Shown here: one piece after another, positions 14,038 to 56,366 of the stretch
How the letters are laid out: each line of letters opens with the position of its first letter
Numbering within the stretch: position 1 is the first letter of the stretch
Assembly: GCA_903880005.1 (NCBI GenBank)
Contig: CAIRNV010000473.1
Span: forward strand, 1 to 56,366
Direction: 5' to 3'
DNA: 56,366 nt
Source of the DNA: an uncultured Verrucomicrobiota bacterium
GTDB lineage: Bacteria > Verrucomicrobiota > Verrucomicrobiia > Limisphaerales > UBA9464
Made by a program: the position numbers and the translations under genes
Notes under the pieces: generated by a model
What the model saw: the letters and a program-made list of their open reading frames with translations, nothing else
What the model was told of the DNA's origin: nothing
Databases searched by the model: none

Positions 14038-14563
14038 GATCTTTCCTTGAGAAATCGAACGAAAAACCGCGCCCGTGGTCGGGCACGATTCGCCATCTTC
14101 TCCCCGTTCCACCGGGGCGGGGTCAACGGAAAACGCGGACGATGTTGGGCCGACGGTGGATCCCGAGGCTGGGGTGGATCCCGAAAACGTCGTGGGTCGC
14201 CCAACGCCAGAGGCGCGGTCATCCCCGGCCGGCAAAACGATCTCGCCCTCCGCCGCCCGGGGCGATAGACCCAAAGGCAACATCATGACGACGCGCCGGG
14301 ATCCCTTGCCTTGCCGGATGGATGAAGCCGGGACGATCCGGTCGGATCGGTCGTGCTGGCTGGATCTTCTTCCGCGGGAGCTTCGTCGCGCGCTCGTTAC
14401 GGGCCTCGTACAGGCCCGCGCCTCGCTTGCTCCTCGTCCCGCGAAAGAATCTGCTGCTCCATCCCTTCCCTCCCAACCGGATCGTCCCGGCATGGCCAGG
14501 ACGACCCAACCGGATCGGTCGTGCTGGCTGGATCTTCTTCCGCACCAGCTGCGTCGCGCGCTC
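14038..14563. other. Intergenic region holding interspersed elements
   Basis: The first 290 bases (14038-14326) show no supported gene or RNA. The rest is taken up by a long TIR element (14327-14491) and a partial copy (14496-14563) that runs directly into the presumed start of the sulfatase gene. Confidence 0.5.
14327..14491. repeat. Interspersed TIR element, long form (copy 2)
   Basis: A 165-bp element. The left end GCCGGGACGATCCGGTCGG and the right end CCAACCGGATCGTCCCGGC are inverted copies with one mismatch, the clearest termini in the window. Inside, GATCGGTCGTGCTGGCTGGATC and CGCTCGTTACGGGCCTCGTA match, in inverted orientation, the copies at 51.1 and 55.2 kb. It is followed at once by a partial second copy. 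Confidence 0.75.
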
Positions 14564-14566
14564 GTG
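14496..14566. repeat. Partial tandem copy of the TIR element
   Basis: Repeats CCAACCGGATCGGTCGTGCTGG and GGATCTTCTTCCGC of the preceding copy, then breaks off at CGTCGCGCGCTCGTGA, where the sulfatase coding sequence seems to begin. Its left end is degenerate and the right terminus is absent. Confidence 0.65.
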
Positions 14567-24769: not shown

Positions 24770-24956
24770 GCGTCGAGATTAGGGAGCGGAACGTTGCGCG
24801 CCAAGGTTCAGACGAGGCCGGGACGCCGCGCACCCGGCCGGCACGAGACGTTGCACCGCCGCCCCTGCTCCTTAGCCGGTACGATTCAGCCTGAAAACGG
24901 CAGTGGGTGTGGGGATCAGTCAGACCCTCAGGTGGAGCCAAGGGCTTGGCCCATGC

Positions 24957-25116
24957 TGTAGGCCGCGCGCCCTCACGCGGCGGCAAGGATGCCGCACTCC
25001 CAGCATCTCTGGGGCAGAGCAGACTGGCAGCGGCATCCTGCCGCTGGACGTGATCCAGCCAGAGCCGAGACGGCTCTGCCACGTTTTCGCCGGGTGAGGG
25101 CACCCGGCCTACAAAA
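24957..25116. repeat. 160-bp palindromic element with terminal inverted repeats
   Basis: The left end TGTAGGCCGCGCGCCCTCAC and right end GTGAGGGCACCCGGCCTACA are imperfect inverted copies. Inside are smaller hairpins: GCAAGGATGCCGC against GCGGCATCCTGCCGC, and AGAGCCG-AGA-CGGCTCT. Nothing protein-like is encoded. It sits upstream of the TPR gene and downstream of gltD, next to a 21-bp tandem array. The stretch 24770-24956 before it shows nothing recognisable. Confidence 0.7.
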
Positions 25117-25126
25117 CCGAGATCGG

Positions 25127-25232
25127 TTGGGGTGAACCCGGACCTTGCTTGGGGTTCACTCCAAGTAGGTTGGAGTGCACTCGAACCTTGATGGAGTCCG
25201 CTCGAACCTCGTTGGAGCGGAGTCCAGATGAG
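25127..25232. repeat. Tandem array of five 21-bp units
   Basis: Units starting at 25127 (22 bases), 25149, 25170, 25191 and 25212 share the pattern TTGGAGTNCACTCGAACCTTG. Adjacent units differ at several positions, so the array is old. The translation in one plus frame has no stop, but this follows from the repeat and is not taken as a gene. A related array with the same period lies at 55.3-55.7 kb. Confidence 0.7.
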
Positions 25233-25284
25233 TTGCGTAGGCCCCGTGTCCTCATACGGCAGCCAAGATGCCGTTCCGTGCGCC

Positions 25285-25332
25285 GGACGAAGCTCTTGCG
25301 GAAGAAGATCCAGCTAGGAAAACCGATCCAAC
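25285..25332. repeat. Remnant of the interspersed TIR element (right half)
   Basis: GGACGAAGCTCTTGCGGAAG, AAGATCCAGC and AACCGATCCAACGG match the right halves of the long copies at 51.1 and 55.2 kb with about 80% identity by eye. The left half cannot be recognised. It lies just after the 21-bp array and just before the end of gltD on the other strand. Confidence 0.55.
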
Positions 25333-47794: not shown

Positions 47795-50700
47795 ATGAAA
47801 CGATCCTCACTCAGATTCCGCCTTCGCGGGGCCTTGCCCGTGGCGGGCCTTTGCCTTGGCTCCTGGAGCCTGTTGGCCCAGGCCGTCCCAGGCGCGCCCG
47901 AAAACAACGGCGTCCAGCCCACCAGCGACACGGTTTACGTCAACACGAGCAACGGGGCCGACATCAACAACAGCTCGACGGAAAGCCTCGGCGTCGCGAT
48001 CGCCCGGAACGGCAACGTGGTCGTGGGCTGGGAGGACGACGGCGGCGACCTGGCGGACCTGCAAGCCGCATGGACCCTGTACAACAGCCAGTCCCAGCCG
48101 CTGATCGAGCCCGTGGAGATCAAGTCCATCGACCCCGCCTTCGCCGGCCAGGTCATTACCTCCCGATTCCTTTCCTACTTCCGGGCCGACAAGTCGCCGA
48201 CGCCGGCGCGCACGGGATGGGGGCCGAAGATCCAGTCCAATCCCTTCGGGGACGGCTTCGGCATGGGGTCAACTTCCTTTGAGCTCGCGCTGGAGGTTCC
48301 CGCCTTCGCCTCCATCGAGAACAACGCCGCCGGCGAGAACGCGGGCGACTACCCCACCGTCCAGTTGCTCGACAACTCCGGGGCCCCCGTCGGGACCGTC
48401 TCCGGCGTCACCGATGCCTACGCCGAGACCGCGGGCAACATCCGCATCGGCGACTGGGGCTACCTCTCCACCGGCAACATCGTCGTGGCCGGCGAAAGCC
48501 GTCAGACCGACGACCTCGTCTCCGTCTGGGGCGGCGCGGCGACGGCCAACCACGTCACCCTTCGCATCGTGAAGCCGGACGGGTCCGAGGTGAAGGCCAT
48601 CCAACTCGCCTCCGCCACGCCGACCAAGGCCGAGATGTGGCACGGCATCGGCACCATCAAGTCCGGCTTCGGCGTCCGCTTCGGCGGCGACGATGGCCGT
48701 GCGAAGGTGCGGCTCTTCGACAACACGGGCACCCCCACCACCACCACGAACATCGACCTCGGGACGTTGGTCGGGAACCCGGTCGCGGCGACGGGCGGCC
48801 GTGGCGACGGCGTCGGTTTCCACGGCAACGGCAACGACGCCTACGCCGTCGTCGGCGTCGGCAACGACGATGCCGGCAAGCCCACCGTCTTGGTGACCGT
48901 CTTGAACGCCAACGGCACGGTGCGGTGGAGCCGGTCGGCCGCCGACGACATCGACCTTCTCTCGCCGGGCCGCGCCGACGTCGCCATCGATGCCTTGGGG
49001 CGCGTGGCCGTGGCCTTTGATTCCACGTCCGCCTCCGTCAACGGCGTGCGCGGCGTCCTGGCCCGGGTGTTCGACGCCAAGGGCACCCCCCTGGGCGGGA
49101 CCTTCTACGTGTCCGAGCGCGAGACGCCTGATTCCCTCGCCTCGGAGTCGCGCCGGCCTCGCATCGCCTTCCGCAACGACACGATCGCGATCGTGTGGGA
49201 GACGTTGACCGCGGAGGTGCCGGACGTCCGGACCGTGGCCCTGCGCCAGTTCGTGGTGCCGGTCAAGCCGGGCTCGATCGAGGCGGCGGGACTGACCCGC
49301 ATCGTCTCCGACACGCCGTTGATCAACCAAGGCCTGAACGCCTTGGGCAACTGGGAGCCCTACGTCTCCGTGCTGGGCACGAGCACCTTCCTCATCGAGG
49401 GCAACGCGTTTGCCGAGGACACCCAGGACAAGCAGCGCTTCGTCGTGGGCTTCCAACCCGCCGCCGGCGGTGCCTACAAGCTCGGCGAGGCCGTCTTCGC
49501 CGACAACGGGACCCCCTTCCGCGGCGCCATCAACGCCTCGCGCCAAAATGGCAACCCCGGCCGTGTTGGCGGCGATCCCCGCCCCGGCGCCGTCAACTTC
49601 GTGGCCGGCGGCGAGATGTCGCCCCACACCCTGGCCGAGTTCGGCTCCGACAATCGTTGGAAGCTGGGCTATGACCGCCTCACGGCTTCCGGGACCGACA
49701 GCCGCTACGGCACCGTCCAGCCCTTCGCGCTGAACCCCTCCACCCTCGCCCAAACCCCCCTCGCCAAGGCGTTCGACGCCGCCCATGGCCGCCGCACCGA
49801 GGGCGTCGTGTTCTCCGACCAAAACACCCGCTTCGGCGGTGACATCGTCGGCCTCGGCAACGGCAACTTCGTCGTGGCCGTCGAGGACCGTTCCCGCTTG
49901 TTCCGGGCCGATGGCAACTGCGCCGTCGCCACCGTCATCAAGCCCGACGGCACCATCGTGAAGGAGACCTTCAAGGTGGCCGACGGCGACTACTGGTCCA
50001 ACCTCGCCGCCTTCAAGGGCGGGTTCGCCGTCCGCGTGGCGGGCGTGCTGTACTTCTATGACAACGACGGCAACAGCCTCGGGTCGGTCGATCAGAACAC
50101 CTCGGGCGAGTCCTTCGACCGCGGTCGTGGCGACGGCACCCGCATCGCGGGCCATGTGAACCAGCCCTACGTGTACGTCGCCGGCAAGGTCAGCACCGCG
50201 CCCGTCGTCCGCGTCGCCGCCTTCAACGCCCTCACCAAGTCCTTCGTGGCCGTCGCCGAGGTCTCCGAGGGCGGGTTCCGCGGCGACTTCGACCGCGCCA
50301 CCGTCGCGGCCGATGCCTTGGGCCGCGTCGTCGTGAGCTGGGTGGCCAAGCCGGACGGCTACGAGCTGCAGCAGGTTGCCGCCCGCGTCCTCGCCTTGGA
50401 GGGATCCTCCTTCCGTGCGCTCACGCCCAGCTTCCTGCCCTTCGTCAACCAAGCCCCGGTCGGCGGCATCCGTACCTTCCAGATGTCCGTCGCCATGACT
50501 ACCCGCCAAATCCTTGTGGCGGCCAAGGGCGAGATCAACCTGTCCAACAAGCCCGAGCAGGGAGCCGACTCGCCCACCGAGCTCAACTTCTTCACCGTCG
50601 TCTCTCATCCGGCCCCGGCCGATGATCCGACGCCGTCTGCCAACGCCCCGCAAACCACGGTCGGGACCACCGCCCCGGCCGGCCTGTCTGGCGGCGCCTT

Positions 50701-50845
50701 CAGCAACGTCGTTGTGGACGAGGCCACCAAGACCATCACGGCCGACCTGCCTGCCTCGGGCGAGCAAGGCTACCTGACCATCGCCCCGGCGCGCCCCATC
50801 AAGAGCGTCCAGAAGGTGGGCAACAAGCTGGTGATCCAGTACTGA
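47795..50845 (+). CDS. Large secreted protein with beta-propeller-like repeats, unknown function
   Basis: A 1016-residue exported protein. The ATG at 47795 leads into a signal peptide (F-R-L-R-G-A-L-P-V-A-G-L-C-L-G-S-W-S-L-L-A-Q-A). The body consists of recurring strands of the type G-N-V-V-V-G-W-E-D-D, G-N-I-V-V-A-G-E-S, D-A-L-G-R-V-A-V-A-F-D, D-A-L-G-R-V-V-V-S-W, separated by about 40-80 residues, as in beta-propellers. Composition is rich in Gly, Asn, Asp and Ala with few Cys (one outside the signal). No membrane anchor, LPXTG or PEP-CTERM tail is seen; the C terminus is K-L-V-I-Q-Y. No catalytic motif is recognised. A strong terminator follows. Possibly an abundant extracellular protein; this is inference. 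Confidence 0.65.
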   Translation: MKRSSLRFRLRGALPVAGLCLGSWSLLAQAVPGAPENNGVQPTSDTVYVNTSNGADINNSSTESLGVAIARNGNVVVGWEDDGGDLADLQAAWTLYNSQSQPLIEPVEIKSIDPAFAGQVITSRFLSYFRADKSPTPARTGWGPKIQSNPFGDGFGMGSTSFELALEVPAFASIENNAAGENAGDYPTVQLLDNSGAPVGTVSGVTDAYAETAGNIRIGDWGYLSTGNIVVAGESRQTDDLVSVWGGAATANHVTLRIVKPDGSEVKAIQLASATPTKAEMWHGIGTIKSGFGVRFGGDDGRAKVRLFDNTGTPTTTTNIDLGTLVGNPVAATGGRGDGVGFHGNGNDAYAVVGVGNDDAGKPTVLVTVLNANGTVRWSRSAADDIDLLSPGRADVAIDALGRVAVAFDSTSASVNGVRGVLARVFDAKGTPLGGTFYVSERETPDSLASESRRPRIAFRNDTIAIVWETLTAEVPDVRTVALRQFVVPVKPGSIEAAGLTRIVSDTPLINQGLNALGNWEPYVSVLGTSTFLIEGNAFAEDTQDKQRFVVGFQPAAGGAYKLGEAVFADNGTPFRGAINASRQNGNPGRVGGDPRPGAVNFVAGGEMSPHTLAEFGSDNRWKLGYDRLTASGTDSRYGTVQPFALNPSTLAQTPLAKAFDAAHGRRTEGVVFSDQNTRFGGDIVGLGNGNFVVAVEDRSRLFRADGNCAVATVIKPDGTIVKETFKVADGDYWSNLAAFKGGFAVRVAGVLYFYDNDGNSLGSVDQNTSGESFDRGRGDGTRIAGHVNQPYVYVAGKVSTAPVVRVAAFNALTKSFVAVAEVSEGGFRGDFDRATVAADALGRVVVSWVAKPDGYELQQVAARVLALEGSSFRALTPSFLPFVNQAPVGGIRTFQMSVAMTTRQILVAAKGEINLSNKPEQGADSPTELNFFTVVSHPAPADDPTPSANAPQTTVGTTAPAGLSGGAFSNVVVDEATKTITADLPASGEQGYLTIAPARPIKSVQKVGNKLVIQY

Positions 50846-50885
50846 CCCCGCCCCCGGTCCTGCCCCTGTGGGACCGATGGAATCC

Positions 50886-50918
50886 AACGGCGTCCGGCCC
50901 CGGCCGGACGCCGTTTTT
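50886..50918 (+). terminator. Rho-independent terminator after the secreted-protein gene
   Basis: AACGGCGTCCGG and CCGGACGCCGTT pair perfectly (12 pairs) with a six-base loop, followed by TTTCTTCC. It starts 41 bases beyond the stop codon and should end the transcript efficiently. Confidence 0.88.
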
Positions 50919-50926
50919 CTTCCTCA

Positions 50927-51183
50927 CAAGGCAAAGGGGTCACATCTAAACTATTGACAAATGCAACGGCACGCCAACGGCGCAGTCGCCGACCCCGGAG
51001 CATCATGTCCAAGCTGAGCCGGCGCGATGCAGTTGGGAGGGACGTGATGGCGCAGCCGATGCTTTCGCAAGCCGAGGAGTGAGCGGGGCGCGGGCCGGTC
51101 TGAGGCCCGTAACGAGCGAAGGACGAAGGATTTGCGGAAGCAGATCGAGCCAGCACGACCGATCCAACTGAATCGTCCCGGCC
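50927..51183. repeat. Long TIR element with extra block, left flank of the ATPase-ldhA cassette (copy A)
   Basis: The 166-bp TIR element proper is 51018-51183, with left end GCCGGCGCGATGCAGTTGG and right end CCAACTGAATCGTCCCGGCC as inverted copies. The preceding 91 bases (50927-51017), starting CAAGGCAAAGGGGTCACATC, are nearly the same in the copy at 55.1 kb but absent from the copies at 2.0, 14.4 and 55.9 kb. Read on the minus strand that block gives V-N-S-L-D-V-T-P-L, which might be the end of an old coding sequence. The rest of the region to 51333 shows nothing recognisable. Confidence 0.75.
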
Positions 51184-51333
51184 AATCATGAAAAGGAGGT
51201 AACCCCATTGGAACTTCCTTCCTCGGGCCCTGTCCCCTTTTGCATCAATCGCGAGTCTCCTTTTGAACCCTTGCCGACAAGAGGCCTGGTTCTGGTTGCG
51301 CTCCGATACAAGGCTCAACAAGCTGTGAGATAG

Positions 51334-54042
51334 GTGCCCGAGGGATTGTATCGCATTGACGCGCAGGCTGCGGCGCTGTCCTTGGAGGCCGACCTTCAAG
51401 GCGGCCTTTCCGCATCCGACGTTCGTCTTCGCTTGGCGAAGTTCGGGCCCAACCGCATCCGATTCCGACCCGGTGTTCCCGCTTGGCGGAGATTCCTCCA
51501 GCAGTTTGGACAGCCCTTGGCGTACATCCTCCTGCTGGCCGCTGGCGTGGTGGCGTTTCTGGGGTCCTGGATCGACTCCGGCGTGATCGCCTTGGTCGTG
51601 GTGATCAACGCCATCGTGGGCTTCATTCAGGAATCGAAGGCCGAGAAAGCCATCGCTGCGCTTTCCGCGATGGTTCTCACGGAGGCCACGGTGCGACGCG
51701 ACGGCATCCAACGCCGTGTCCCGTCGGAGGAACTCGTGCCCGGCGATCTCGTTGTTCTGCGCTCCGGCGACCGCGTCCCGGCGGACCTTCGCCTGTCCCA
51801 GGTGCGGAGCCTCCAGATCGATGAATCCACCCTCACCGGCGAGTCGCTGCCGGTGGACAAGCATGCCGATCCGCTCCCCGCGGACACCCCCCTGGCTGAC
51901 CGGCAAAACATGGCCTATGCCGGCACGCTGGTGACGATGGGGTTGGCCGAAGGCGTGGTTGGAGCGACCGGGGACCAGACCGAGACCGGCCGGATCGCCT
52001 CGCTGATGGCGGAGACCACGTCGATGGCCACGCCGCTGACGCGCAAGATCGAGCACTTCAGCCGGGTCCTGCTCAGGGCGATCCTCGCCCTGACCGTGCT
52101 GACGTTCTGCGTCGGGCTTCTCCATGGTGAACCTTGGGTGGACCTCCTCATGGCTTCCGTCGCGCTGGCCGTCGGTGCCATCCCCGAGGGACTGCCTGCG
52201 GCGGTGACGATCGTCCTCGCCGTCGGCGTCAAGCGCATGGCCGCGCAGCGTGCAATCATCCGCAAGCTCCCGGCCGTGGAGACGCTCGGCAGCACCACGG
52301 TGATTTGCTCCGACAAGACCGGGACGCTGACCGAGAACCAGATGACCGTGCTTCGGATTTTTGCCGGCGGTCAGTCCTTCGATGTCACCGGTGCAGGCTA
52401 TGCGGCGGCTGGGGCGATCCAACAGGGAGGCCACGTGGTGGACGCGACGCAACACCCGGCGTTGGCCGAGTGCCTTCGCGCGGGACTGCTGTGCAACGAC
52501 GCCCTGCTGCTCTCCGATGACGGACGCCCGGTGGTCCAGGGAGATCCCACCGAGGCGGCGCTCATCGTCGCTGCCGCGAAGGCGGGCATCCTGCGCGAGG
52601 CCACCCACCGCGGGGCGCCGCGCTTGGACATGATCCCCTTTGAATCCGAGCACATGTTCCGTGCCACGCTGCACGCGGCTGCCGGGGGGAGGATGATTTA
52701 CAAGGTGGGCGCGGTGGAGCGACTCCTTGATCGCTGTGAGGTCGCCCTTGGACCGGACGGGCGCGCGGCTCCCCTTGACCGACTCGCGATCCAGGCCGCA
52801 GTCGAGGCCATGGGCCGCGAAGGCCTGCGCGTCCTCGCGATGGCGCGGCGATCCACCCATGACGGGCACGAACGCCTCGAGCACGATCACGTCGGGAGGG
52901 GCCTCACCTTCCTGGGCCTGCAAGGAATGATCGATCCACCCCGACCGGAGGCGATCGCGGCGGTGGCCAAGTGCCGCGCGGCCGGGATCTGCGTCAAGAT
53001 GATCACCGGAGACCACGCCACGACCGCGCGGGTCGTGGCCATGCAGATCGGGATCGGAGTCGCCGGGACGGAGCTGCGTTGCCTCACCGGCCGCGAACTG
53101 GCGGAGGTGTCCGATGCGGATCTCCCGCGGGTGGCCGACGAGACCTCCGTGTTCGCCCGGGTTGCACCGGAGCAGAAGCTCCGCCTCGTCCGTGCGCTCC
53201 AAGCCCGCGGCCACGTCGTCGCCATGACCGGCGACGGCGTGAACGACGCTCCGGCTCTCAAGCAGGCCGACATCGGCATCGCCATGGGGATCACCGGAAC
53301 CGATGTCGCCAAGGCAGCGGCGGACATGATCCTCACGGACGACAACTTCGCGACCCTGCAGTTGGCCGTCGAGCAGGGCAGGGGAGTCTTCGACAACCTG
53401 CGGAAGTTCATTCTCTGGACCCTGCCGACCAATGCGAGCGAGGCGGCGGTGTTGCTGATCGCGATCATCCTGGGCTGGACCCTGCCGATGCTCCCGGTGC
53501 ACATGCTGTGGATCAACCTGTGCACCGCCATCTTGCTCGGCTTGATGCTGGTCTTTGAGCCAAACGAGTCCGACCTCATGCAGCGGCCGCCGCGGGACCC
53601 GGCGAGCCCGCTGCTGACCAAGGCCCTGCTGCTGCGCACGGGACTCGTGACCGCGCTGATCACCGTCGGCGCCTACTGGCTTTTCGCCTTGGAGCGGAAC
53701 CTGCCGGGGAATTCAATCGCCGCCGCCCGGACGGCCGTTGTGAACGTCATCGTGGTGGCCGAGATCGCCTACCTCTTCAACTGCCGTTCGCTGCACCGGA
53801 GCCTCTTCCGCATCCGATGGTTCGGGAATCCCTGGGCCGTCGGCGGCGCGGCGGCAATGCTTGGCATCCAAGTTCTGTTCACGCACTTGCCGATCATGAA
53901 CCGTCTTTTCCACTCCGCCCCACTGACCCTCGGGGCATGGTCGCGCATCGTCGCCGTCGCCATCGGGGTCCTGCTGATCGTCGAACTCGAAAAGTGGCTG
54001 CGCTTCGGCGGCGGGCGCGGCCGCAACCGGATTCCGGAATGA
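51334..54042 (+). CDS. P-type cation ATPase, CtpF-like (P2 type)
   Basis: A 902-residue membrane pump. The N-terminal cation-ATPase domain, T168-G-E-S (actuator), the phosphorylation motif D327-K-T-G-T, and T-G-D634-G-V-N-D are present. Membrane helix 4 has P-E-G-L-P as in calcium pumps, but in helix 6 the usual N-x-x-T-D is replaced by N-L-C-T-A followed by L-G-L-M-L-V-F-E-P, as in CtpF-like bacterial pumps induced in hypoxia. Ion specificity is therefore uncertain (calcium, or a different cation). The start is a GTG at 51334 without a strong ribosome site. Its stop overlaps an in-frame ATG of the next gene (ATGA), suggesting coupling. The pair lies between two repeat copies. Confidence 0.88.
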   Translation: MPEGLYRIDAQAAALSLEADLQGGLSASDVRLRLAKFGPNRIRFRPGVPAWRRFLQQFGQPLAYILLLAAGVVAFLGSWIDSGVIALVVVINAIVGFIQESKAEKAIAALSAMVLTEATVRRDGIQRRVPSEELVPGDLVVLRSGDRVPADLRLSQVRSLQIDESTLTGESLPVDKHADPLPADTPLADRQNMAYAGTLVTMGLAEGVVGATGDQTETGRIASLMAETTSMATPLTRKIEHFSRVLLRAILALTVLTFCVGLLHGEPWVDLLMASVALAVGAIPEGLPAAVTIVLAVGVKRMAAQRAIIRKLPAVETLGSTTVICSDKTGTLTENQMTVLRIFAGGQSFDVTGAGYAAAGAIQQGGHVVDATQHPALAECLRAGLLCNDALLLSDDGRPVVQGDPTEAALIVAAAKAGILREATHRGAPRLDMIPFESEHMFRATLHAAAGGRMIYKVGAVERLLDRCEVALGPDGRAAPLDRLAIQAAVEAMGREGLRVLAMARRSTHDGHERLEHDHVGRGLTFLGLQGMIDPPRPEAIAAVAKCRAAGICVKMITGDHATTARVVAMQIGIGVAGTELRCLTGRELAEVSDADLPRVADETSVFARVAPEQKLRLVRALQARGHVVAMTGDGVNDAPALKQADIGIAMGITGTDVAKAAADMILTDDNFATLQLAVEQGRGVFDNLRKFILWTLPTNASEAAVLLIAIILGWTLPMLPVHMLWINLCTAILLGLMLVFEPNESDLMQRPPRDPASPLLTKALLLRTGLVTALITVGAYWLFALERNLPGNSIAAARTAVVNVIVVAEIAYLFNCRSLHRSLFRIRWFGNPWAVGGAAAMLGIQVLFTHLPIMNRLFHSAPLTLGAWSRIVAVAIGVLLIVELEKWLRFGGGRGRNRIPE

Positions 54043-54050
54043 CATCTCCT

Positions 54051-55046
54051 ATGAAGACCATCGCCTTCTACGACGCCAAATCCTACGACCGTGAATTCAT
54101 GGGCGCCGCTCCGGGCGCCGGGCGCCTGCGATGGGTCTTCCATGAATTCCGGCTCACGGCGGAGACGGCGACCAGCGCTCGGGGCGCGGACGCCGTCTGC
54201 GGGTTTGTCAACGATCGGCTCGATCGGGAGTGCCTCGAGACGCTCGCGGCCCTTGGGGTGCGCCACGTGGCGCTGCGCTGCGCGGGCTTCAACAACGTCG
54301 ATGCGACGGCCGCGCGCAGGCTGGGGATCGCCGTCACGCGAGTGCCCGCCTATTCGCCGCACGCCGTCGCGGAGCACACGGTCGCGCTGCTGCTGTCGCT
54401 CAACCGGCGGATCCACCGCGCCTACAACCGTGTCCGCGAGCAAAACTTCGCACTGCACGGCCTCGTGGGTTTCGATCTCTTCGGGAAGACCTGCGGGATC
54501 CTGGGCACCGGCAAGATCGGACGGATCACGGCCCAGATCCTCCGGGGCTTCGGCATGCGGGTCCTCGCCCATGATCCGTCTCCCTCGATTGAGTGGGCGG
54601 CGGCGAATTCAGTTGCCTACAGCCCGCTGGCGAAGGTCCTCGCCGAGAGCGATGTCCTCTCCCTCCACCTGCCGCTCAGCCCGGCGACACATCATCTCAT
54701 CGATGCCTCCGCCCTCGCGCAAATGAAGCCCGGCGTCGTCCTCGTGAACACCAGCCGGGGCAAGCTCCTTGACACCGCTGCGGTCATCATGGCGCTCAAG
54801 GCCGGCCATCTGGCCGGGGTGGCACTCGACGTCTATGAGGAGGAGGAGGGCGTCTTCTTCGAGGACCTTTCGGGGACTGTCCTGCAGGACGACGAACTCG
54901 CTCGGTTGCTGGTGTTCCCCAATGTCCTCATCACCGCCCACCAAGCCTTCCTCACCCGGGAGGCCCTTGCGGAAATCGCCCGGGTCACGGTGACCAACCT
55001 CGCGGCAGGTCCCGGCGGCTTCCTTCCCGGCACCGTCGTGACGTGA
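54051..55046 (+). CDS. ldhA: D-lactate dehydrogenase-like 2-hydroxyacid dehydrogenase
   Basis: A 331-residue NAD-dependent enzyme expected to reduce pyruvate to D-lactate during fermentation. The start M-K-T-I-A-F-Y-D-A-K-S-Y-D matches the LdhA N terminus, so the ATG at 54051 is preferred; an ATG at 54039 overlapping the ATPase stop is possible. The nucleotide motif G-I-L-G-T-G-K-I-G-R is near 150, the catalytic Arg in N-T-S-R-G, the Glu in L-D-V-Y-E-E-E-E-G and the His in T-A-H-Q-A-F. The length fits LdhA (329 in E. coli). Coupling to a cation pump suggests a low-oxygen or energy-stress module; this is inference. Confidence 0.88.
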   Translation: MKTIAFYDAKSYDREFMGAAPGAGRLRWVFHEFRLTAETATSARGADAVCGFVNDRLDRECLETLAALGVRHVALRCAGFNNVDATAARRLGIAVTRVPAYSPHAVAEHTVALLLSLNRRIHRAYNRVREQNFALHGLVGFDLFGKTCGILGTGKIGRITAQILRGFGMRVLAHDPSPSIEWAAANSVAYSPLAKVLAESDVLSLHLPLSPATHHLIDASALAQMKPGVVLVNTSRGKLLDTAAVIMALKAGHLAGVALDVYEEEEGVFFEDLSGTVLQDDELARLLVFPNVLITAHQAFLTREALAEIARVTVTNLAAGPGGFLPGTVVT

Positions 55047-55052
55047 CCCTCT

Positions 55053-55306
55053 CAAGGCAAAGGGGTCACATCTAAACTATTGACAAATGCAATGGCACAC
55101 CAACGGCGCAGTCGCTGACTCCGGAGTCCCATGTCAAAGCTGAGCCGGCGCGATGCGGTTGGGAGGGACGTGGTGGCGCAGCCAATGCTTCCGCAAGCCC
55201 AGGAGTGATCGAGGCGCGGGCCCGTACGAGGCCCGTAACGAGCGAACGACGAAGCTCTTGCGGAAGCAGATCGAGCCAGCACAACCGATCCCCTTGCATC
55301 ATTACC
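55053..55306. repeat. Long TIR element with extra block, right flank of the cassette (copy B)
   Basis: Matches 50927-51183 in the same orientation over its whole length, with identity of roughly 85-90% by eye; the first 40 bases are identical. The TIR part starts at 55144 (GCCGGCGCGATGCGGTTGG); its right terminus (CCCCTTGCATCATTACC) is decayed. It begins seven bases after the ldhA stop. A 21-bp tandem array starts 15 bases beyond it. Confidence 0.75.
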
Positions 55307-55321
55307 GCGAAGGCTGCCGCA

Positions 55322-55675
55322 GACCCTTGGTCGGACGCGTCCGACCTTTGTCCGGATGCCCCCGACCTTTGTCCGGATGCCCCCGACCTTTGTCCGGATG
55401 CCCCCGACCTTTGTCGGGATGCGTCCGAGGCTTTCCCAGACGCACCGGACATAGAATCAGACGCCCAAGAGTTTTGTTCGGGAGCACCCGACCTTTGTCC
55501 GGATGCCCCCGACCTTTGTCGGGATGCGTCCGAGGCTTTCCCAAACGCACCCGACCTTGAATGAGACACCCAAGAGTTTTGCTCGGGTGCACGCCACCTT
55601 GATTCGAATGCGCCCAACCTCTGTTGGATGCACCCGACCTTTGTTGGGAAGCGTCCGAGGCTTTCTCGGGCACCC
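55322..55675. repeat. 21-bp tandem array with 105-bp higher-order period
   Basis: About 17 units of 21 bases, the most regular being GACCTTTGTCCGGATGCCCCC repeated at 55343, 55364 and 55385 with no difference. From 55385 a block of five diverged units (105 bases) is repeated at 55490, giving a higher-order period. One later unit is 20 bases and the final one is incomplete. The period of 21 keeps both strands open in several frames; in one plus frame the unit reads D-L-C-P-D-A-P. There are no unique spacers, so this is not CRISPR. No ribosome site or start suggests translation. Confidence 0.85.
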
Positions 55676-55836
55676 ATGGAACAACATCGGACACGCGATG
55701 ACCCGTGTGCTGGCCTCGTGCCATCTGCGCGTCGAGTTCAAGCCGACCGTCGAGGTCGAGGCAGCGGCTGATTCTGGGTTTCCAGCAACGGGTCGCCTCG
55801 GGTACAACATCCCCGGCGCGATTCCTACGATTCCAA

Positions 55837-55915
55837 GCCGGGACGATTGAGTTGGGAGGGAAGTGATTGCGAAGCAGATCGAGCAAGCACGACCGATCCA
55901 ACTGCATCGTTCCGG
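55837..55915. repeat. Interspersed TIR element, short form (copy 5)
   Basis: A 79-bp element with left end GCCGGGACGATTGAGTTGG and right end CCAACTGCATCGTTCCGG (15 of 18 positions pair). The core GCAGATCGAGCAAGCACGACCGATC aligns with all other copies. It is the same size as the copy at 1981-2058. The rest of 55676-56096 shows no gene that can be supported. Confidence 0.72.
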
Positions 55916-56096
55916 TCAAGGCCGGGCGTCCATGGGTCGTCACGCCGACCAAGACATGAAAGCCACGCCGCCCCATGGCGACCGACCCCATCCCGCCGAC
56001 ACGGGCAGGACCGGGTCATGCAGTCCCGGCGCGGATCCCTGGCCCGCCCTGGATGTTGGCCCCCGTGCCAATCCCTGACCGGACCGCCGTCCCCGG

Positions 56097-56366
56097 ATGG
56101 AGATCATCGACAACATCAACCGGCTTCTCGGTGACGACCTCAAGAAGACCTTGGTCCCTGGGGCCAGGCTCAAGGTCGCCGCGTCGTGCTTCTCCATTTA
56201 CGCCTACGAAGCCCTGAAGGCGGAGTTGGAACGGATCGATTCCCTCCAGTTCATCTTCACCGCGCCCACGTTTGTTCCCGGCGATGCCGCCGACAAGGTG
56301 CGCAAGGAACGCCGCGAGTTCTACATCCCCAAGCGCGAGCGCGAGCGCAGCCTGTACGGCAGCGAG
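56097..56366 (+). CDS. Start of a large helicase-type protein (PLD-like N terminus), cut by window edge
   Basis: The first 90 residues of a longer protein. M-E-I-I-D-N-I-N-R-L-L-G-D-D-L-K, then L-K-V-A-A-S-C-F-S-I-Y-A-Y-E-A-L, then F-I-F-T-A-P-T-F-V-P-G and R-R-E-F-Y-I-P-K-R-E-R-E-R-S-L-Y-G-S-E match the N terminus of large proteins that combine a phospholipase-D-like part with a SNF2-type helicase and are often found beside DNA methyltransferase genes in defence or restriction loci. The helicase motifs would lie beyond the window, so the function is inferred from memory of the family. No good ribosome site is seen before the ATG. Confidence 0.6.
   Translation, partial: MEIIDNINRLLGDDLKKTLVPGARLKVAASCFSIYAYEALKAELERIDSLQFIFTAPTFVPGDAADKVRKERREFYIPKRERERSLYGSE

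Follow-up and report, generated by a model that had tools for sequence, protein, structure and literature searches.

Short sequences that occur in many, mostly intergenic copies are familiar from bacteria as MITE and REP-type repeats, which are recognized by their terminal inverted repeats or their hairpins and are not tandem. The heterocystous cyanobacteria carry two tandem families, LTRR and STRR, with unit lengths of 37 bp and 7 bp, respectively. STRR is dispersed, and LTRR is likewise a tandemly repeated family dispersed in a bacterial genome (PMC2408588). A survey of prokaryote satellites (PMC6749651) describes scattered families of short repeats in a few species, and transposed, non-coding families of long repeats in two species. 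The scattered short-repeat satellites are called eukaryote-like and probably transposed there, and the survey's statement on rarity concerns repeats of over 30 nt. In the short-repeat class (10-30 nt), Fam_1_14_23 of Chloroflexus aurantiacus is species-specific and scattered through the genome, its 14-nt repeat coming from a heptamer microsatellite. In Leptospira interrogans and Methanocella conradii, related non-coding tandem arrays with repeats of 37-69 nt (Table 2 of the survey) are scattered over the genome, which is read there as a sign of satellite transposition. Satellite DNA that spreads is a feature of animals and plants, and reports of it from prokaryotes are limited to a few cases. 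A literature search in which subscription journals were thinly covered found no 21-bp satellites in Verrucomicrobia.

Here, we analyze a 21-bp tandem repeat, called the window array, in a contig of 56,366 nt that is referred to as a whole as the window. It is contig 473 of a genome assembly (G000) of 5.02 Mb in 492 contigs, with a completeness of 96.6%. We will argue that the window array belongs to a satellite (minisatellite) family that is lineage-specific, dispersed and non-coding, a reading to which we assign a probability of roughly 75%. With 17 units, the array falls within the survey's definition, which asks for four or more tandem repeats of 10-200 nt (PMC6749651). The family resembles Fam_1_14_23 in being a species-specific family of short repeats scattered through one bacterial genome, but it differs in its 21-bp period, its strongly diverged units and its possession of an element with fixed unit order. 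With the families of L. interrogans and M. conradii it shares the scatter of related non-coding arrays over one genome, whereas the repeat here is 21 bp and is accompanied by a second, unrelated 21-bp family. LTRR and STRR, although organized in a similar way, belong to another phylum and have another sequence. The arrays are also comparable to MITE and REP-type repeats, being built of short repeats, mostly intergenic and found beside MITE copies; unlike these, they are tandem, and no bounding inverted repeats were seen.

All 17 units of the window array fit one register of a circular 21-column profile, one late unit, near 55614, being 1 base short. The coordinates of this array and of the other repeats discussed below are given in Table 1. 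TRF reports a period of 21 at 55341-55527 and a period of 105 at 55368-55600 (2.2 copies, 89%). On the kilobase of the array the best TRF score is 375, whereas none of 200 shuffles that preserve dinucleotides exceeds 54. The runner-up tandem repeat of the window (25171-25217, score 66) is part of the second array listed in the table. The preliminary description of this DNA, which counted ca 17 units of 21 bases and noted that three are identical and that a five-unit block is duplicated, is borne out by these results. It had also placed the start of the array 15 bases after a TIR element. The closeness holds, but the inverted-repeat element ends at ca 55308-55311, so that the array begins ca 10-14 bases beyond it. 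The three identical units would reflect a recent local amplification.

Table 1. Repeat features and their positions (numbering of the window unless a locus handle is given).
Feature	Position	Strand	Remarks
21-bp satellite array, 17 units	55322..55675	+	family consensus CCGAGATTTGTTCGGGCGCGC; here mostly CCGACCTTTGTCCGGATGCCC
Three identical 21-bp units, CCGACCTTTGTCCGGATGCCC	55341..55403	+	consecutive
Duplicated block of 105 bp (5 x 21)	55383-55487 and 55488-55592	+	97/105 positions identical
Second array, same superfamily, subfamily B, degenerate, 6 units	25117..25234	+	in the window
MITE-like inverted-repeat element	55143..55310	+	inverted ends; separate from the window array
MITE-like copies and pieces in the window	51017-51182, 55143-55310, 55836-55919, 25286-25329, 14344-14565
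Family D arrays	L202:7530-7760 (G000:C107), L279-L282

Related arrays are widespread in the same genome. A 63-base profile built from seven loci (R1) gave 82 matches at E <= 0.01, with 150 of 1,730 first-look candidates scored, and a second profile (R2), derived from a variant carrying GATTGGTTCGAG at five loci, gave 40 at E <= 0.001, with 150 of 867 scored. Setting the fetched loci in register with the circular profile yielded 28 arrays, two of them in the congener G004, the sister of this species, and 26 in the own genome. The latter therefore holds at least 26 distinct related arrays with together 327 units, the modal bases of which read CCGAGATTTGTTCGGGCGCGC. The number of units per array varies from 3 to 22, and the array with 3 units, L086, is truncated where its contig ends. 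This array (score 32) and L106 (score 38) are the least certain of the 26. It is important to point out that the profile searches scored 137-150 of the 558-2,546 first-look candidates per genome, so that 26 is a lower bound and diverged arrays in the congeners could escape detection. In addition, the assembly is fragmented, and several arrays sit at contig ends. The family to which the window array belongs is made up of three subfamilies, A, B and C. Local growth is also seen elsewhere in the family, namely a 105-bp higher-order spacing in L085 and a 167-base higher-order unit in L079. The alternative that the window array is a chance relic, proposed earlier for the case that no similar array exists elsewhere, is refuted by the presence of these similar arrays. 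We also observed that the dinucleotide TA is strongly under-represented across the 26 arrays, with 43 occurrences compared to 102 expected from column shuffles.

The arrays are almost wholly intergenic. According to a simple and crude codon-usage gene caller, 6,312 of the 6,381 array bases lie outside called genes, and the remaining 69 lie inside one weak gene call at L081. The flanking genes have varied orientations, and neither a common orientation nor a common gene context is found. A dispersed repeat at 24921-25091 of the window directly adjoins the array at 25117; matching stretches are present in L070, L078, L088 and L105, as well as in G004 (L107, L108). The neighbour of the window array is a dehydrogenase gene, whose best-scoring relatives are mostly from metagenome assemblies, many labelled Verrucomicrobia and some 'Akkermansia'; the two nearest, with an identity of 74-75%, carry the labels Planctomycetia and Kuenenia. 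From these relatives, the uncultured bacterium probably belongs to Verrucomicrobiota.

Seven arrays (L070, L071, L073, L076, L077, L078 and L080) are copies of one element, called element A, in which ca 13 non-identical units follow each other in a fixed order, and they are colinear unit by unit. The identity of the other six to L077 is 71-80%, and L086 is an eighth array of this kind, cut by the contig end mentioned above. A non-repeated leader of ca 75 bases is common to L073, L076, L078 and L080; it is partial in L070 and absent from L077 and L071. A similar tail is found in L070, L073 and L077. Genome-wide matches of L073 extend from upstream into the array at C209, C6 and C95. The fixed unit order, together with these leader matches running into the arrays, shows that the element-A arrays were copied as blocks. 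The alignment of the copies contains 50 pairwise indels, which are not independent of each other. Thirty of them are short (14 of 1 base, 8 of 2, 5 of 3, 1 of 4 and 2 of 5), and the other twenty differ by no more than one base from 21 or 42 (2 of 20, 12 of 21, 4 of 22, 1 of 42 and 1 of 43), which is the pattern expected from gain and loss of units plus drift.

Among the genomes searched, the family is nearly restricted to one or two species. With R1 at E <= 1e-5 and 137 candidates scored per genome, the own genome gave 57 matches and the congener G004 one, while seven other congeners, 15 genomes of the same family and 15 of the same order gave none. R2, with 150 candidates scored in each of the eight congeners, gave three matches in G004 and none in the other seven. 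A 33-base two-unit pattern had no exact match in viral contigs and 84,980 named genomes. This is weak evidence, since the pattern has a low sensitivity (of the 26 own arrays it finds 4, and not the window array) and the collection may lack records close to the own genome.

We have also compared orthologous loci. Both genes flanking the L073 array (L073:4174-4481) have matches in all eight congeners, and no array was found in the 15 fetched loci around these orthologues, some of which end at contig ends; one left-gene match, in G003, lies outside the 15 loci. The two genes never occur in one locus (within ca 1.5 kb) among these 15, and the right-gene match in G004 is preceded by a contig end at a distance of 39 bases. 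The L073 array sits as if at a rearrangement breakpoint, its flanking genes being apart in the 15 congener loci. For the dehydrogenase gene that precedes the window array, an orthologue was found in three of the eight congeners, and the 1.5 kb beside it contains no array in any of the three. No clean empty site for an array was found in the congener loci compared.

A second scattered family with 21-bp units, called D, was first met as L202 when 353 kb from elsewhere in the own genome were surveyed, and its 13 matches are spread over nine contigs. Compared on one strand, its profile resembles A-C no better than permuted columns do (P 0.57), and five aligned copies gave no clear sign of codon selection (forward frame 1: synonymous share 0.329 vs 0.277 expected, 0 stops). 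At L072:6370-6540 (G000:C122) there is yet another array, E, with 21-bp-spaced palindromes such as GGGGCAACCGGTTGCCCC, which matches only at its own locus. To see these arrays in the context of the genus, further stretches of G000 (353 kb), G007 (364 kb), G004 (165 kb) and G006 (254 kb) were surveyed. The selection was non-random, as the stretches of G000, G007 and G004 are mostly contigs with MITE matches and those of G006 were taken by contig number. Seventeen TRF arrays with a score of at least 90 were obtained; none has a period of 21, and two have a period of 42, namely family D in G000 and a GCC-rich array in G004. Weaker signals at lag 21 are also present in these stretches. That two unrelated families share a 21-bp period is a coincidence beyond plain slippage, and it counts against the reading preferred here. 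One could take A-C, the unrelated D and the third array at E to mean that the lineage has a process that makes or spreads satellites of 21-bp period whatever their sequence, which we consider quite improbable.

Since a coding origin would make the period a multiple of three, the arrays could be the remains of genes for heptad-repeat peptides (PEFCPDA / PEIGSSA), or even still be such genes. The preliminary description had suggested a heptad-coding origin, having seen several frames open on both strands. Long ORFs do cross the window array on both strands (55072-55677 minus, 201 aa; 55153-55560 plus, 135 aa), but four of the six frames are interrupted inside it by one or more stops, and the PEFCPDA frame itself has one. 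In the family as a whole, the PEFCPDA frame is free of stops in 17 of the 26 arrays and is open without frame shift in five full copies of element A (L070, L071, L073, L077 and L080). Column information in this frame is lowest at the wobble phase (0.668 vs 0.728 and 0.914), while in element A it is codon position 2 that is least variable (0.217 vs 0.271 and 0.281). Against this, the most open plus frame of the 26 arrays has 16 stops, similar to the 15.4 and 19.9 of the column-shuffled nulls (global and within arrays, respectively), and the synonymous share of the most open frame in the element-A copies, 0.284, matches the expected 0.274. One minus frame has 8 stops compared to 16.0 in the null (P 0.01), with a synonymous share that is not raised (0.282 vs 0.302), whereas reverse frame 2 has a raised share (0.358 vs 0.290) in a phase that holds 36 stops; the frames of the stop and substitution tests were here paired by us. 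The avoidance of TA leads to fewer stops in general. The six ORFs across the window array have codon scores of -0.19 to -0.45 bits per codon, while 99 called genes of at least 200 aa, themselves called by codon usage, average +0.255 with a 5th percentile of 0.005. The copies of element A differ, among others, by indels of 1, 2, 20 and 22 bases, which are not multiples of three, and the weak call at L081 is the only called gene that any array touches. The arrays show no clear coding signal, with weak signs to the contrary. The heptad-coding origin is not supported by these results, and we regard genes of this kind, past or present, as very unlikely.

Another option is that the arrays are phased binding sites for a protein, e.g. 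a nucleoid or partition-like protein, and are maintained by either the host or an element. A period of 21 bp corresponds to about two turns of the DNA helix, and a mostly regular spacing of this length is found in two families unrelated in sequence. Dyad symmetry is seen in subfamily B (P 0.03, core GAGTGCACTC) and in family D (P 0.0025, from 76 units of five related copies). For the window array's family overall, however, with the best dyad centre of the unit at 17|18, the self-symmetry of the profile is not significant (P 0.116), nor is it in subfamilies A (0.37) and C (0.36), which makes a palindromic protein site a weak candidate. The few matches in congeners, the differences of 20-29% between element-A copies and the lack of an orientation or gene context common to the arrays also speak against phased sites. 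Protein binding by the arrays, although possible, is thus without support, and we judge it highly improbable. A mobile, non-autonomous element of larger size, of which the arrays would be an internal part and which would carry them around, is in our estimate unlikely. The leader and tail shared by copies of element A fit such a carrier, as does the proximity of the arrays to a MITE-like element of ca 166 bp starting with AGCCGGCGCGATGCAGTTGGGAGG. This element has 534-535 first-look candidates in the genome (21-40 scored), and matches also in G004, G007, G023 and G035. Five of the 26 arrays have a copy no more than 60 bp away (null mean 1.3, P 0.012), and 10 have one at up to 200 bp (null mean 3.2; none of 500 draws as high). 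The null points were drawn from all non-coding bases irrespective of intergenic length, and the excess may thus in part reflect long, repeat-rich spacers. The closeness is a modest tendency. At L074 and L085, and at L282 for family D, the edge of the array directly meets a MITE end. On the other hand, the flanking repeats vary from array to array, comparison of the flanks revealed neither a common outer boundary nor bounding terminal inverted repeats, and the leader is missing or partial in three copies of element A.

A structured RNA array was also considered and rejected. RNAalifold gave no consensus fold or pairs in 25 aligned three-unit pieces, Rfam had no match at E <= 0.5 within 50000-56366 of the window, and pair covariation within the arrays is slight, with little or no excess pairing. 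The structural reason for which the array might be kept, suggested in the preliminary description, is thus not borne out, the dyad result above included.

For the dispersed satellite family, which is the reading we prefer, the following course of events can be proposed from the sequence comparisons. An ancestral 21-bp array would have grown by replication slippage or unequal recombination, and such local growth is still visible in the three identical units and the 105-bp duplication of the window array. Whole blocks would then have been copied to other intergenic sites by recombination or transposition, perhaps helped by the abundant surrounding MITE-like repeats or by recombination between repeats, and the copies would have drifted since. 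Most likely, the family does nothing for its host and survives as DNA that is tolerated or selfish; it is, in other words, probably selfish or neutral.

These results thus describe a satellite family whose period is a multiple of three, for which the tests made gave no support for coding, and which is present in at least 26 places while being nearly limited to a single species or a pair of species. They call for caution, as a period that is a multiple of three need not mean coding. The family offers a bacterial system in which the birth and spread of satellites can be compared between close relatives.
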